Source of the DNA: an uncultured Chloroflexota bacterium
Lineage (GTDB): Bacteria > Chloroflexota > UBA11872 > UBA12225
Length of the DNA: 64,000 bases
Direction of reading: 5' to 3'
Assembly (NCBI GenBank): GCA_902805635.1
Contig: CADCTC010000170.1
Span: 8,354 to 72,353, forward strand
The first letter of the stretch is position 1, and every line of letters starts with the position of its first letter. A program made the position numbers and the translations under genes. The notes beneath the pieces were generated by a model. That model made no database searches. It had not been told where the DNA came from and saw only the letters and a program-made list of their open reading frames with translations. Positions 56,053 through 60,868 of the stretch are shown here, piece by piece.

Positions 56053-56475
56053 CTACGAAAGATAGCGGTCGAGGGCAGCCTTCAGGTTGCGCCACTCGGC
56101 CTCTGTCGTGCCGCTCGCCACGGCATCGCGCAGACAGCTCTCTATGTGGTCCTCCAGCACCACCCGCGCCACCTTGTCTACCGCTGCGCGGATGGCGGCC
56201 AGCTGAATCAGCACGTCCGGGCAGTCTCGCCCCTCCTCCACCATGCGGCGCACGGCGCGGACATGCCCCTCAGTGCGCGCTAGGCGGTTCAGCACCGCGT
56301 GCGTCTGGTGGTGGGGCGACTCGTGGCGATGTGGCAAACGCTCCGGTGCAGGGCCACTATCGACGCGGTCTTCCTGTTGAGCGTGCGCACCGCCACCTTC
56401 CGCGTCACTGTGACTGTGGTCGTGGCTATGGTTGAGGCCCTGGTGGGGCGCCGCCGCATCCGGCGTAGTGCTCAC
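56053..56475 (-). CDS. CsoR/RcnR/FrmR-family (DUF156) metal-sensing repressor, InrS-like ligand set
   Basis: HAVLNRLARTEGHVRAVRRMVEEGRDCPDVLIQLAAIRAAVDKVARVVLEDHIESCLRDAVA; C-x24-H-x3-C spacing; His-rich N-terminus HSHDHSHSD. Confidence 0.95.
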   Translation of the reverse strand: MSTTPDAAAPHQGLNHSHDHSHSDAEGGGAHAQQEDRVDSGPAPERLPHRHESPHHQTHAVLNRLARTEGHVRAVRRMVEEGRDCPDVLIQLAAIRAAVDKVARVVLEDHIESCLRDAVASGTTEAEWRNLKAALDRYLS

Positions 56476-56505
56476 GTTCGTGGTGCTCCGCCCTTATTCT
56501 GCCGG

Positions 56506-56832
56506 TTAACGCGTCAGGAGGTCGTTTCGAACGGCCGCTAGCAGGCGCGCCTTCACCGCGGGGCTGGCCGGGACCGGACGCACTGCGGCCGGCAAGGAGT
56601 CGACCACCGCGCCGAAGTAGGCAACTATCGAGCGGCAGTAGGCGCAGCGCTGCAAGTGCGACGCATACGCCGTCGTTTCGCCAGGATTGAGGGCGCCCAG
56701 CGCATAGCACGCGGCGTGCCCCTCAATCACCAGGCGTGCTTTGGGCGTGAGGGCGCCCAGCAGGTGCGCCCCGGTGAGGTCCGGTGACGCGCTGCAGGGC
56801 CCCTGGTTTGGCGTGCCCGTGCCGCTCGTCAT
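56506..56832 (-). CDS. Stand-alone anti-sigma-factor-like zinc-binding (ZAS) protein
   Basis: VIEGHAACYALGALNPGETTAYASHLQRCAYCRSIVAYF; no TM or extracytoplasmic domain. Confidence 0.75.
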   Translation of the reverse strand: MTSGTGTPNQGPCSASPDLTGAHLLGALTPKARLVIEGHAACYALGALNPGETTAYASHLQRCAYCRSIVAYFGAVVDSLPAAVRPVPASPAVKARLLAAVRNDLLTR

Positions 56833-56918
56833 AATGTCTCTCTCGCGCGCACCGCGCTGGACGTACTCCCCATGCGCCTGGCGGCGCGGCGCCACGCGAC
56901 GTCTGCCGGGGAAAGGGT

Positions 56919-56998
56919 GCAGCGCGCCGGCACCGTCGGGGGGCAGTGCCGGCGCGCTGCGGTGTCACGGCGCGCTCGGGGGAAGCGGCCGTGACACC
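56919..56998. other. Two back-to-back perfect inverted repeats (15-bp and 11-bp stems)
   Basis: GCAGCGCGCCGGCAC-12nt-GTGCCGGCGCGCTGC (56919-56960) followed directly by GGTGTCACGGC-16nt-GCCGTGACACC (56961-56998). Confidence 0.9.
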
Positions 56999-57124
56999 AG
57001 CATGTACGCCGCCGTGATGAATCTGGTCGTACGTTCCCACCTCCTGCCCACATCCGCGGGCATCCCAACATGGTCGATGTCGGGCACGACGGGGTAGGCT
57101 GTTCGCTCCAGCCAAGTTCTTAAC

Positions 57125-57206
57125 GCACCGGTGCAACACTTTGGCATAAATCGTGCAGTACCTGCCCACGCCGGTCCAGGCATAGGCGGTGCGGTGGCAC
57201 CGGTGC
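57125..57206. promoter_or_regulatory. Two copies of palindrome GCACCGGTGC, 72 bp apart, upstream of the sigma2-GAF gene
   Basis: 57125-57134 and 57197-57206; the downstream gene starts at 57232. Confidence 0.55.
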
Positions 57207-57231
57207 ACAACAGCACTATCGGGAGCAGCGT

Positions 57232-58371
57232 ATGCAGACGGGGATCGCGAGCGAGCGAGCAGGGCAGCCGGAAGCGCAAGCGGTCGATCGGGAGTCGCCG
57301 GACTCTCGATGGGGGACACTCACCAATACTGCGCCCGTCACACCGGCCATGGCAGCCGTTACAGGCCCGGCGCGTGCCGGTAGCCTGGCGGACCAGAATG
57401 CAGCATGTATTCAGGCGGTCCGCGACCGCGCCCGTGACGCCGAGACTGCGCTGGAGCACCTGTACGAGCGGCACTCGCCGGTGGTGTACGGCGCGCTGGT
57501 GGGCCTGTTGGGCGATGGTGAGCGTGCCGAATCTGTGCTGGTGGAGACATTCACGCGCTTCTGGCAGCAGCCGCATGCTGCGCCGCGCGACGGCGTCACG
57601 CTCTGCCGGTGGCTCATGCTGCAAGCGCACATCCTGGCCCGGCCCTTGCTCACTCCAGCTACCACTCCTCGCACTTCCCCCAGCGTCCGGCCTATACCCG
57701 CTGGCCTCGGCCCGGCTGCCGTCCTGGCCTCCGACCCTGCGGTCGGCGGGACGTCTGAGACGGCGTGCCTGGAAGACGTGCTGATCACCGCGGAGCTCGC
57801 TCGCCGCCCTGCCAGGGCGCCCTACCTCCAGGCCGAGAACGATGCGTTCTTCACCGTTGCGCGTCGGCTGGCCACCCGCGCTGGCACAGACGCCGTGCTG
57901 GAGACACTCGTCCACACCGCCGTCCGCCTGTGCGGCGCCGGCACGGCCGGGATCAGCTTGCTAGAAACGCCCGACAGGTCGGAGGAAGCGCAGGCGGCGC
58001 AGGGGACAGACCGGTGCGACGCAGTGTTCCGCTGGACACACATGGCCGGACAGATGGCAGCCTCAACCGGCGGCACTACCCCTCGCGACTTCAGCCCCTG
58101 TGGGATCACGTTGGACCGCGCTGCGCCGCAACTCTTCTCCCGCCCCGACCGCTACTTCACCTACCTCGCGAACGAGACTGCTCCCATTGTGGAGGGGCTG
58201 GTGATCCCCCTGGCCGCGGCGGACGGCCCCGACGCGCCCCAGATCGGGACCATCTGGATCGTCTCGCACGACGAGGACCGGCACTTCGATTGGGAAGACG
58301 CGCGCATCATGACTAGTCTGGCAAGCTTCACCGCCATCGCCCTCCAGATCGCTGCTGCCGACCCGGTGTAG
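57232..58371 (+). CDS. Sigma-70 region-2-like domain fused to a GAF domain (no region 4 seen)
   Basis: DAETALEHLYERHSPVVYGALVGLLGDGERAESVLVETFTRFWQQ...LCRWLMLQAHILAR, then a GAF-like domain (DAVLETLVHTAVRLCGAGTAGISLLE...FTYLANETAPIVEGLVIPLAAADGPDAPQIGTIWIVSHDEDRHFDWEDARIMTSLASFTAIAL). Confidence 0.8.
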   Translation: MQTGIASERAGQPEAQAVDRESPDSRWGTLTNTAPVTPAMAAVTGPARAGSLADQNAACIQAVRDRARDAETALEHLYERHSPVVYGALVGLLGDGERAESVLVETFTRFWQQPHAAPRDGVTLCRWLMLQAHILARPLLTPATTPRTSPSVRPIPAGLGPAAVLASDPAVGGTSETACLEDVLITAELARRPARAPYLQAENDAFFTVARRLATRAGTDAVLETLVHTAVRLCGAGTAGISLLETPDRSEEAQAAQGTDRCDAVFRWTHMAGQMAASTGGTTPRDFSPCGITLDRAAPQLFSRPDRYFTYLANETAPIVEGLVIPLAAADGPDAPQIGTIWIVSHDEDRHFDWEDARIMTSLASFTAIALQIAAADPV

Positions 58372-58421
58372 AGGAAGGTCGCGTTAGCGTTGGCGATGTC
58401 TGTGCAGACCCGCCGAGCGGC

Positions 58422-59156
58422 GTGTTTCTTGCGATAGGCACGCGTGTGCGACCGGTGCGGGCGGAGGTGGGTGTGGATGGCCGCGTGTCCGACATTCAGG
58501 GCACGCAGGTGGCCTCGCTCGGTGCGCTGAAAGACGACCAGCTCGTGCTGCTGGTGTGCGCCCGCGAGCCGGTGGCCGAGCGCGCACTGGGCGAGCTCTA
58601 CCAGCGCTACTCCACCGCGGTTTACGCGCTGGCGCGGCGCGTTGTTGGGGACAACAGCACTGCCGAGGAAGTGCTCCAGGAGGCGTTCTGGCACGTCTGG
58701 CGCAGCGCGGCGCAGTACCAGCCTGGCCGCGTGCGGTTCGCCACCTGGCTATTGCGCATTACCCACAACGCCGCCGTCAGCGAGCGCCGCAGCGCCGCGC
58801 GCCGTCCCCAGCGCGTGACACCGCGCGCGGATGAAGACGCCACCGCGGATAGCATGGCGGACTTGATGGCCATGGCGGACACCGCGCCGGACGTGCCCGA
58901 CCAGGTCTGGCTCTCCGAGCAGCGCCGCGTCATCGTCGAAGGACTGGGGAATCTGCCGCACGAGCAGCGCGAGGCCGTAGAGCTCGCCTACTACGGTGGC
59001 CTGACGCACTCGGAGATCGCCGCCCATCAGGGCGCACCGCTGAGCACCGTCAAGACCCGGCTCTCATTAGGACTGCGCAAGCTGGCGGAGCACCTCACCG
59101 CACGTCGCATGCAGCCGGCGGCAAGCCTCGAACCGGCGGACGATTCCCGTGGTTGA
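58422..59156 (+). CDS. ECF-type RNA polymerase sigma factor
   Basis: ALGELYQRYSTAVYALARRVVGDNSTAEEVLQEAFWHVWRSAAQY...FATWLLRITHNAAVSERR; region 4 LPHEQREAVELAYYGGLTHSEIAAHQGAPLSTVKTRLSLGLRKL. Exact start uncertain. Confidence 0.95.
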   Translation: MFLAIGTRVRPVRAEVGVDGRVSDIQGTQVASLGALKDDQLVLLVCAREPVAERALGELYQRYSTAVYALARRVVGDNSTAEEVLQEAFWHVWRSAAQYQPGRVRFATWLLRITHNAAVSERRSAARRPQRVTPRADEDATADSMADLMAMADTAPDVPDQVWLSEQRRVIVEGLGNLPHEQREAVELAYYGGLTHSEIAAHQGAPLSTVKTRLSLGLRKLAEHLTARRMQPAASLEPADDSRG

Positions 59157-60051
59157 TCCAGGCTCCCCGACCCGTCCGACTATGTACTCGGGCCCTCCGG
59201 CAGCGACCCACCGGGCGGACCCGTGGGAGGCGGAGCACCCTACCGAGCTCCTGGCCGCCTATGCGCTCGGCGCTCTGCCCCCTGAGGAGCGCGGGCCCGT
59301 GGCAGCGCACCTGCGGACGTGCACCGCGTGCCGCACCGACCTCGCGTACCTCCAGCGCGCCGCGGATAGTCTGGGACTCTCGCAGCCTCCCGCTATCCCG
59401 CCGGCCAGCGCCCGCGCGCGTCTGATGGAGCGCGTTGCTGCAGACCGCCAGCACGCGCACGAGCTCACGGCGCCTGCACCCGTGGCTCAGACCCAGCAAC
59501 GGCCATCCCACGCGCCCGCTTCGCCCTGGCTATCCTGGGGCGGCTGGGCCACCGCGGCCGCCAGCCTCGCTGTCGCCGCCATGTCCACCTGGCAACTCAC
59601 CGGCGCCATGCGTGAGACGGACGCTTTGCGCCGCGAGCTCGCCGCGCTGCGCGCCGACGTGGCATCGCTGCGATCCACCACGCAGGAAGTGTCGGCCACG
59701 CTGGCCGACATCGATCCGGCCGATACGCACGTCGCGGCGATCCAGGGCGCCGGGCAGGCGCAGCGGGCACACGGCCGCTTGCTCTACGAGCCGGGAAAGC
59801 AGAGCGGCTTCGTCGTGATGGAAGACTTGCCGGCGCTCGATCCAGGCAAGGTCTACCAGCTGTGGCTCATGCAGGGGAGCACCCCTTTTAGTGCCGGCAC
59901 CTTCTCACCCGGCCCAGGTGGCGCCGGCAGCGTCGTCATCCGGGCCCCTGCCCAGCTGGGCAGCTACGCCCTCTTCGGCATCACCGCCGAGCCTAACCCA
60001 GGAGTCCTGGCCCCCACCGGCCCCATCCTGGCGAGCGCTCCGCTGACATGA
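59149..60051 (+). CDS. RskA-family anti-sigma factor
   Basis: ELLAAYALGALPPEERGPVAAHLRTCTACRTDLAYL; TM; YQLWLMQGSTPFSAGTFSPGPGGAGSVVIRAPAQLGSYALFGITAEPNPG. 8-bp overlap with the sigma gene. Confidence 0.94.
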   Translation: MVDPGSPTRPTMYSGPPAATHRADPWEAEHPTELLAAYALGALPPEERGPVAAHLRTCTACRTDLAYLQRAADSLGLSQPPAIPPASARARLMERVAADRQHAHELTAPAPVAQTQQRPSHAPASPWLSWGGWATAAASLAVAAMSTWQLTGAMRETDALRRELAALRADVASLRSTTQEVSATLADIDPADTHVAAIQGAGQAQRAHGRLLYEPGKQSGFVVMEDLPALDPGKVYQLWLMQGSTPFSAGTFSPGPGGAGSVVIRAPAQLGSYALFGITAEPNPGVLAPTGPILASAPLT

Positions 60052-60053
60052 TC

Positions 60054-60770
60054 TCACACGGTGCTGCGCCCAATGTCGAGGATGGGGCCTACGGCGCTGA
60101 CCGAAATGGACGCCTCCTCGAGCCGCACGACCCGCTGGAGCCGGGTCACCGCGTCGGCTGCCCGCATCGTGTGCTTCACGATTTCCGCTACCGACTCGGC
60201 CAGCTGGGCATCCGCGCGGATCGTCGGGTGCAGCAGTAGCAGGTCCCCGTATCCCACCGGCAGCGCCAGCGCATTGTTCACCTCGTGCGCCGCGGTGCGC
60301 GCGGCCAGCAGCACTCCCTCCAGCCGGGCCGCCTCGCGCGCCGCCTCCTCGGCACGCATACGCGCGGCGGTCTCCTCCACCCGCCGGGCGGCCACCGCCA
60401 GGCGCACGTTCAGCAGGTCTAGCTGCATCGGTTTCGCCAGGTAGTCGTCGGCGCCGGCGGCCAGCACCTCCCGCAAGTCGGACGGGCGCGAGCGGGCCGT
60501 CACCACCAGCACCACGGTGTCCCGCCCGCCGTCCGCGCGCATGCGCCGGCACAGCTCCAGGCCATCCACCTCGCCCGGCAGCATCCAGTCCAGCAGCGCC
60601 AGCGGGTACGCACCCTCCGCCGGCGATCCGGCCCGGCGCCAACCCTCCCACGCCGCCCACGCCTCCTCCCCACTGGCGAAAGCGTCAACCACGTGGCCGT
60701 GCTCCTCCCGGAGCAGCTCCTCCATTAGCTGCCGGATCCCGTCGTCGTCTTCCACCAGCAGTACGCGCAT
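60054..60770 (-). CDS. Response regulator receiver fused to a DHp-like helix pair, lacking the HATPase domain
   Basis: MRVLLVEDDDGIRQLMEELLREEHGHVV...LLDWMLPGEVDGLELC...LAAGADDYLAKPMQLDLL; then ARTAAHEVNNALALPVGYGDLLLLHP. Stop before N/G boxes. Confidence 0.85.
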   Translation of the reverse strand: MRVLLVEDDDGIRQLMEELLREEHGHVVDAFASGEEAWAAWEGWRRAGSPAEGAYPLALLDWMLPGEVDGLELCRRMRADGGRDTVVLVVTARSRPSDLREVLAAGADDYLAKPMQLDLLNVRLAVAARRVEETAARMRAEEAAREAARLEGVLLAARTAAHEVNNALALPVGYGDLLLLHPTIRADAQLAESVAEIVKHTMRAADAVTRLQRVVRLEEASISVSAVGPILDIGRSTV

Positions 60771-60868
60771 GATCGGCTCTCTCCCAGACCTCGCGCCCGC
60801 CCCAGCGCGGTCAATCCTAGCTTCTGCCTCGCCGGTCAAGACTTGGTCAACCACAGGTCAACGGCCGG

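Follow-up and report, generated by a model that had tools for sequence, protein, structure and literature searches.

A degenerate ECF sigma-2 domain joined to a GAF module in a probable Chloroflexota bacterium, a candidate ligand-gated sigma mimic

The locus and its neighbourhood

The window, the whole stretch of 64,000 nucleotides (64 kb) analysed here, contains a gene in which a sigma-2-like domain and a GAF module share one reading frame, flanked by genes for an ECF sigma factor and two anti-sigma-like proteins (Table 1). Among plasmid-borne rRNA genes, the nearest listed to the 16S fragment of this genome is that of Thermomicrobium roseum (82.2%; next listed 79.7%), so that the host is probably, though not certainly, a member of the Chloroflexota. 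The frame of the fusion gene is open over 379 codons, as the preliminary description had read it. Its ATG is preceded by a GGGAG ribosome site (57221–57225, 6 nt upstream), and no alternative in-frame start was found within 35 codons upstream. The sigma-2 part has a third-position GC of 0.82 and the GAF part one of 0.84, close to the 0.82–0.89 of five neighbouring genes; the N-terminal tail and the linker have a lower value (0.68).

Table 1. Features of the fusion locus (window coordinates)
Feature	Position	Strand	Remarks
Lone soluble ZAS anti-sigma-like protein, 108 aa	56506..56832	-	Divergent from the fusion gene; zf-HC2
10-bp palindrome GCACCGGTGC, copy 1	57125..57134		97 bp before the fusion start codon
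10-bp palindrome GCACCGGTGC, copy 2	57197..57206		25 bp before the fusion start codon
Sigma-2-like/GAF fusion protein (subject of this study)	57232..58371	+	Single open frame, 379 aa
Degenerate ECF sigma-2 domain, aa 52-140, four helices	57385..57651	+	AF2, fold match, ECF profile
Low-confidence linker, aa 141-182	57652..57777	+	pLDDT, collinear gap against L103, no region-4 match
GAF sensor module, aa 183-376	57778..58359	+	GAF_2 match, invariant columns, 3ci6 fold match
Complete ECF sigma factor, regions 2 and 4	58422..59156	+	50 bp downstream of the fusion gene
RskA-type anti-sigma with ZAS domain	59149..60051	+	RskA_C 3.8e-20, zf-HC2 1.1e-7

The lone ZAS protein carries the HxxxCxxC motif (HLQRCAYC) and matches zf-HC2, the family that marks class-I anti-sigma factors, at a marginal 22.7 bits in its 129-aa form against a cut-off of 22.2. 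It is without an RskA C-terminal part and stops just past the putative ASDI helix 4, and its peak 19-residue hydropathy of 1.35 gives no clear membrane segment by a measure that misses the RskA anchor too (1.15). Its nearest relative is the ZAS domain of the C35 RskA (46% identity, 77 bits, against 35 bits for the downstream RskA), which is encoded on another contig of the genome (L008/L035) and adjoins an ECF of its own. The lone protein looks like a truncated relative of that domain, and the likeness suggests that cross-talk between the two ECF systems may be possible. The lone ZAS and the sigma-2 domain of the fusion cannot be traced to one common sigma/anti-sigma pair.

Downstream, the RskA gene overlaps the stop of the ECF gene by 8 bp. 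A search of 56400–60100 gave no terminator-like site, and the fusion gene and the downstream ECF apparently form one transcription unit. Both copies of GCACCGGTGC in the 64-kb window lie upstream of the fusion gene, making a possible operator pair; two or more copies occurred in 5 of 100 shuffles. A perfect 15-nt inverted repeat with 12-nt spacing (56919–56960) lies between the divergent ZAS and fusion genes. ECF-type promoters of the form GGAAC-N15-18-CGT number six in the window, where 7.7 are expected, and none is near the fusion locus. No RNA family exceeded its gathering score in the window, no phage-family match was found, and the viral_contigs collection returned no relatives of the window ECF. 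Beyond the RskA gene, a reverse-strand gene (60054–60854) encodes a response regulator receiver with a C-terminal part that looks like a pair of HisKA-type helices (E 0.1); a weak NaeI match (1.4e-4) stays under its cut-off, and no DNA-binding output domain was found in this protein.

Domain composition of the fusion protein

The N-terminal half had earlier been aligned by eye with the neighbouring ECF sigma, and this alignment is correct. In phmmer comparisons seven ECF frames of the genome, the neighbour among them, match the fusion at E 9e-7 or better, the seven loci having been picked because they match it. The profile check proposed for this domain gave a divided answer. Pfam Sigma70_r2 reaches E 7.9e-4 and 19.6 bits, under the cut-off of 24, and covers just 48–53 of 71 profile positions; it is the weakest of 39 such matches in the genome and the sole one below the cut-off, and Pfam alone would leave it sub-threshold. 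On a profile of 73 ECFs built without the fusion, the protein scores 60.1 bits; the highest-scoring of 2000 shuffles reached 8.0. The best NCBIfam match is the ECF model PRK09645 (E 3.3e-9, under the whole-protein cut-off), and a PDB sequence search returned SigL (3e-4) and SigK (2e-3).

The full AF2 model, built on an alignment whose sigma-2 part rests on two sequences, has a disordered tail up to aa 49, helices at aa 52-64, 70-93, 96-112 and 121-140 with pLDDT of roughly 75–87 across the sigma-2 domain, a stretch with pLDDT below 50 at aa 144-182, and then a GAF fold. A fold search with the whole model gave only GAF-type proteins among the best 50 matches listed, and a model of the sigma-2 part alone was therefore made and searched (97 residues, three sequences, mean pLDDT 89.5). 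Its best PDB structure match is the complex of SigW with the ZAS protein RsiW (Z 12.7, 1.8 Å, 89 residues), followed closely by CnrH, E. coli sigma-E, SigK and SigE, and the PhyR entries are lower (2lfw, Z 6.9; 5uxw, Z 4.2). Foldseek returned nothing at E 0.001 (best 0.032), and nearly all of the first 46 matches listed are sigma-factor or transcription-initiation entries by title; because these E-values are weak, the structural support rests on the Z scores, their consistency and the sequence. Region 2 of the fusion is a genuine but degenerate ECF sigma-2 domain.

The absence of region 4, also noted earlier, is borne out. No region-4 family matched the protein at E up to 10, and the linker, predicted to be disordered at aa 144-182, takes the place where an ECF has the last part of region 2.4 and everything on to the end of region 4. 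Judged as a member of ECF group 4, the protein has the sigma-2 homology and lacks the sigma-4 domain. The other forward frames of the gene were read by eye for a region-4 remnant and held nothing sigma-like.

The C-terminal half, described before as GAF-like, matches Pfam GAF_2 (PF13185; E 1.2e-7, 32.5 bits) above the cut-off of 28.6. All 27 columns that are invariant in seven GAF sequences are present in it, and its model superimposes on 3ci6 over 158 residues (Z 19.0, 2.3 Å); judged from its sequence and predicted fold, it is an intact sensor module. Sensor histidine kinases of cyanobacteria and proteobacteria carry an N-terminal GAF module 41–60% identical to that of the fusion. In those kinases the module opens the protein and usually drives a kinase, whereas in the fusion it closes the protein and no kinase is present. 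A survey of 39 proteins carrying this GAF, which used an ECF-selection model that included the fusion itself, found 38 without a sigma part, one of them (L121) cut by a contig edge; in 37 of these 38 the GAF begins at most 33 residues from the start codon, and the protein is usually much longer. Only L103 had a sigma part as well.

Residue losses in region 2 and the relative L103

Region 2 was compared with 73 intact ECFs, selected with the same fusion-containing model: 20 come from this genome; another 20, of the same phylum, had been fetched for their resemblance to the fusion; and 33, of the phylum of L103, had been fetched together with L103. Four positions stand out. Position 101 is acidic in all 73 ECFs and Ser in the fusion; position 104 is Gln in 67 of 73 and Val in the fusion; position 134 is N, H, S or T in all 73 and Ile in the fusion; and position 141, Arg in all 73, is Thr in the fusion. 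At these four positions 67 ECFs show no deviation and six show one, against four in the fusion. The acid at 101 and the Gln at 104 lie on what we take to be the clamp-binding face of region 2.2 in ECFs, and the fusion has neither. Arg141 is not universal beyond the 73-ECF set, as RpoE differs there. Arg76, considered as a functional marker, was dropped, being conserved in only 16 of the 73.

Conservation in at least 60% of the ECFs singles out 36 columns (18 hydrophobic, 16 polar and two Gly). The fusion retains 14 of the 18 hydrophobic columns versus 4 of the 16 polar ones. Its polar retention is the lowest of the 74 sequences and its hydrophobic retention is mid-range (25th lowest of 74), so that the difference between the two, 0.53, is the largest of all (next 0.29; Fisher p 0.005 within the protein). 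The fold thus looks kept and the conserved polar face lost, and the domain appears to have lost the conserved region-2 residues that face the polymerase and the promoter.

L103 is a 401-aa protein of the Acidobacteria bacterium palsa_289 MAG (PKWH01000142.1, L103:3362-4564). It matches Sigma70_r2 (62.7 bits) and Sigma70_r4_2 (40.1 bits) above the Pfam cut-off and GAF_2 at 24.6 bits, under the cut-off of 28.6; by its sequence it is a complete sigma2-sigma4-GAF protein, newly found here. A complete sigma-2/sigma-4 pair followed by an extension is present in L103 and not in the fusion. BLASTP aligns the two end to end at 184 bits with a gap at the segment from region 2.4 to region 4: domain order and GAF family are alike, but region 4 is present in L103 and absent from the fusion. 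In the GAF tree the fusion groups with L103 and the kinase L107 at 93/79, short of the 95/80 mark of that tree. The sigma parts of L103 and the fusion show no particular closeness (33.5 bits, where other ECFs reach up to 45.5, among ECFs chosen with the model that included the fusion), and separate fusions are therefore possible; common descent of L103 and the window fusion is possible and two separate fusions are equally open. No HxxxCxxC protein was found in the 14 kb around L103, which may be a directly sensing sigma factor.

The search for the same architecture elsewhere, called for in the preliminary description, thus yielded a near relative that has region 4, and the form seen in the fusion in one genome. 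The sigma-2/GAF architecture occurred in one of 41 genomes of the class, and in one of 400 and one of 399 genomes of the phylum (overlapping samples). In the phylum of L103, 63 of 396 genomes gave a match, and L103 itself was the only full-query row among those scored; in these phylum-scale searches (400, 399 and 396 genomes) the best four candidates per genome were scored. A few rows of the search in the phylum of L103 extend past position 230. Ten of the rows lacking a locus, mostly with long open frames and among them the longest of those few, proved to be ECFs without GAF. Searching 395 genomes with the GAF alone returned 14 matches, none sigma-fused in any of six frames. Among 2314 ORFs of at least 80 aa from 176 loci, 58 carry the GAF and 78 an ECF sigma-2, and only L103 and three copies of the fusion protein carry both; in this survey, the ten-row check and the 60.1-bit test, the ECF model excluded the fusion. 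The plasmid collection gave 80 records for the fusion, none covering 80% of the protein, and 605 for L103, again none covering 80%; a direct scan of named genomes with the fusion protein found none. Since no orthologue was found in the class, phylum and named-genome searches, conservation of the gene pair across species cannot be shown. The literature listings searched, largely short of full text, showed no GAF-fused sigma.

A possible sigma mimic and its alternatives

The earlier proposal of a ligand-sensing pseudo-sigma is supported by the anatomy of the protein: a sigma-2 fold kept, no region 4, conserved polar residues lost, and the GAF invariants in place. We tentatively favour the reading that the fusion is a one-component, GAF-gated sigma mimic that would titrate a ZAS anti-sigma and be PhyR-like in its action. 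A decoy or anti-anti-sigma role, also proposed before, is the best-supported mechanism, with ZAS binding, gating by the GAF, the direction of control, the identity of the freed sigma and the ligand all inferred. In one signalling state, set by a ligand or by redox state, the GAF would expose the sigma-2 face, and its mostly kept region 2.1/2.2 surface would serve as the grip site for helix 4 of the ZAS anti-sigma. The anti-sigma, either the divergent lone ZAS or the RskA two genes downstream, would be soaked up and a true ECF sigma freed; in the other state the face would be hidden. A cytoplasmic small molecule could in this way release an ECF sigma without a kinase, phosphorylation or proteolysis.

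Table 2 of PMC7406223 gives ten sigma-2 positions that contact the anti-sigma in all four solved ECF/class-I ASDI complexes. Carried over to the fusion by alignment, nine of the ten hold a residue that the 73 ECFs also show, five of these being the commonest ECF residue (L74, Y78, E100, F107 and W111). The site equivalent to Q51 is Val104, a residue seen in none of the 73. As the contact sites are variable, nine matches in ten is a weak test. In the same study, 12 of the 14 top covarying contacts join ASDI helix 4 with sigma-2 (PMC7406223), which makes a bait consisting of sigma-2 alone plausible. The idea that the contact face might single out the ECF of C35 was unsupported, that ECF ranking fourth of the 20 in the genome (tied 2–4).

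The closest precedent is PhyR of the alphaproteobacterial general stress response. Its sigma-like domain is described as degenerate with respect to core and promoter binding, and the protein as binding NepR once its receiver domain is phosphorylated (PMC8103513, PMC4598750), and phyR is divergent from nepR-ecfG (PMC8103513). The fusion resembles it in having a degenerate N-terminal sigma-like domain and a C-terminal input domain, and in the anti-sigma gene that is divergent from its own. It differs in that the input is a GAF and not a phosphorylated receiver, that sigma-2 stands alone where PhyR has sigma-2 plus sigma-4, that the nearby anti-sigma is a ZAS protein and not NepR, and that it comes from a probable member of the Chloroflexota. 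Measured as a PhyR, it has the degenerate core and promoter residues and lacks the C-terminal receiver. The mimic reading draws on the sigma-2 homology and fold, the selective polar loss, the anti-sigma contact sites, the gene context and the PhyR precedent. It is weakened by Val104, the variability of the contact sites, the lack of preference for C35 and the lack of a common sigma/anti-sigma pair to which the ZAS protein and the sigma-2 domain trace, and further by the missing orthologue, the absence of Arg141 from RpoE and the absence from the fusion of the sigma-4-like parts of PhyR.

Among ECFs with C-terminal extensions (SnoaL-like, TPR or metal-binding; PMC8999054), the regulatory domain is C-terminal as in the fusion, but region 4 is kept before it. 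The main text of that review never uses the word GAF (PMC8999054), and L103 separately adds an ECF with a GAF extension. A sigma2-sigma4-GAF sensor sigma, a form intact in L103, may have been turned into a mimic by loss of region 4. That the fusion is a ligand-gated bait of sigma-2 alone, outside the PhyR family, paired with a stand-alone ZAS and evolved from an L103-type sensor sigma, is possible but rather doubtful. PhyR is the main known example of sigma mimicry, and there it is coupled to a two-component phosphorelay; if the reading is true, mimicry arose again with a different input and a different anti-sigma class, ZAS, and an active sensor sigma could be converted to a mimic through loss of region 4.

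The chief rival, which we consider unlikely, is that the fusion is a decaying sensor sigma, a former sigma2-sigma4-GAF protein whose region 4 was deleted, whose sigma-2 remnant is idle and whose remaining function lies in the GAF. Its occurrence as a singleton in one draft genome (one of 41 in the class), the weakest Sigma70_r2 match of the genome and the existence of an intact counterpart in L103 would all fit such a relic. Against this stand the 379-codon open frame with its ribosome site and coding-type third-position GC, the confidently predicted sigma-2 fold, and the concentration of losses at polar positions with mid-range hydrophobic retention. Neutral decay should hit polar and hydrophobic positions, so the selective pattern, read from a single sequence, speaks against plain decay.

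It is improbable that the fusion acts as a GAF-gated inhibitor, bound not to an anti-sigma but to the neighbouring sigma or the polymerase and blocking a site without initiating. A sigma-2 fold minus its promoter-recognition residues could act in this manner, and the gene apparently shares a transcription unit with an ECF, with no terminator-like site from 56400 to 60100. The acid and the Gln of the clamp-binding face are lost, however, which makes competition for the polymerase unlikely.

Slightly less probable again is a co-sigma of sigma-2 alone that would start transcription together with a region-4 protein under GAF control. Split sigma systems exist: in SigO-RsoA of Bacillus, two sigma domains on separate proteins jointly start transcription (PMC8103513), and RsoA, like the fusion, has sigma-2 without sigma-4 on one chain. 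The fusion also keeps E105, F107 and W111 of region 2.2. Unlike RsoA, which initiates with SigO, it has lost conserved clamp-face residues, the acid and the Gln, along with residues of regions 2.3 and 2.4; moreover, the neighbouring ECF has a region 2 of its own, and no separate region-4 protein was noticed beside the fusion gene in the ORF list of the locus.

An artefact, with two genes joined in error or the GAF translated alone from an internal start, could be imagined in a draft MAG (327 contigs, 89.5% complete, 5.4% contamination) with a GTG at codon 183, where stand-alone GAF kinases begin, but it is very unlikely, as L103 has the same order of parts, no ATG or TTG start lies near codon 183, the distance from GGAAG-A-C to the GTG is only 3 nt, and misassembly at the junction could not produce residue losses that lie upstream of it.

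Two other groups of proteins were observed in the phylum of L103. Proteins of about 270–320 aa (L164, L166-L174) carry a related GAF and, after it, a stretch resembling a histidine-kinase dimerisation region (HELAHRINNPLQ), have no room for an ATPase domain and are possibly kinase-less sensors. Proteins of about 370 aa (L177, L181-L184) have an ECF sigma followed, by eye, by a domain like the C-terminal part of RskA, and apparently represent a sigma fused to part of an anti-sigma.
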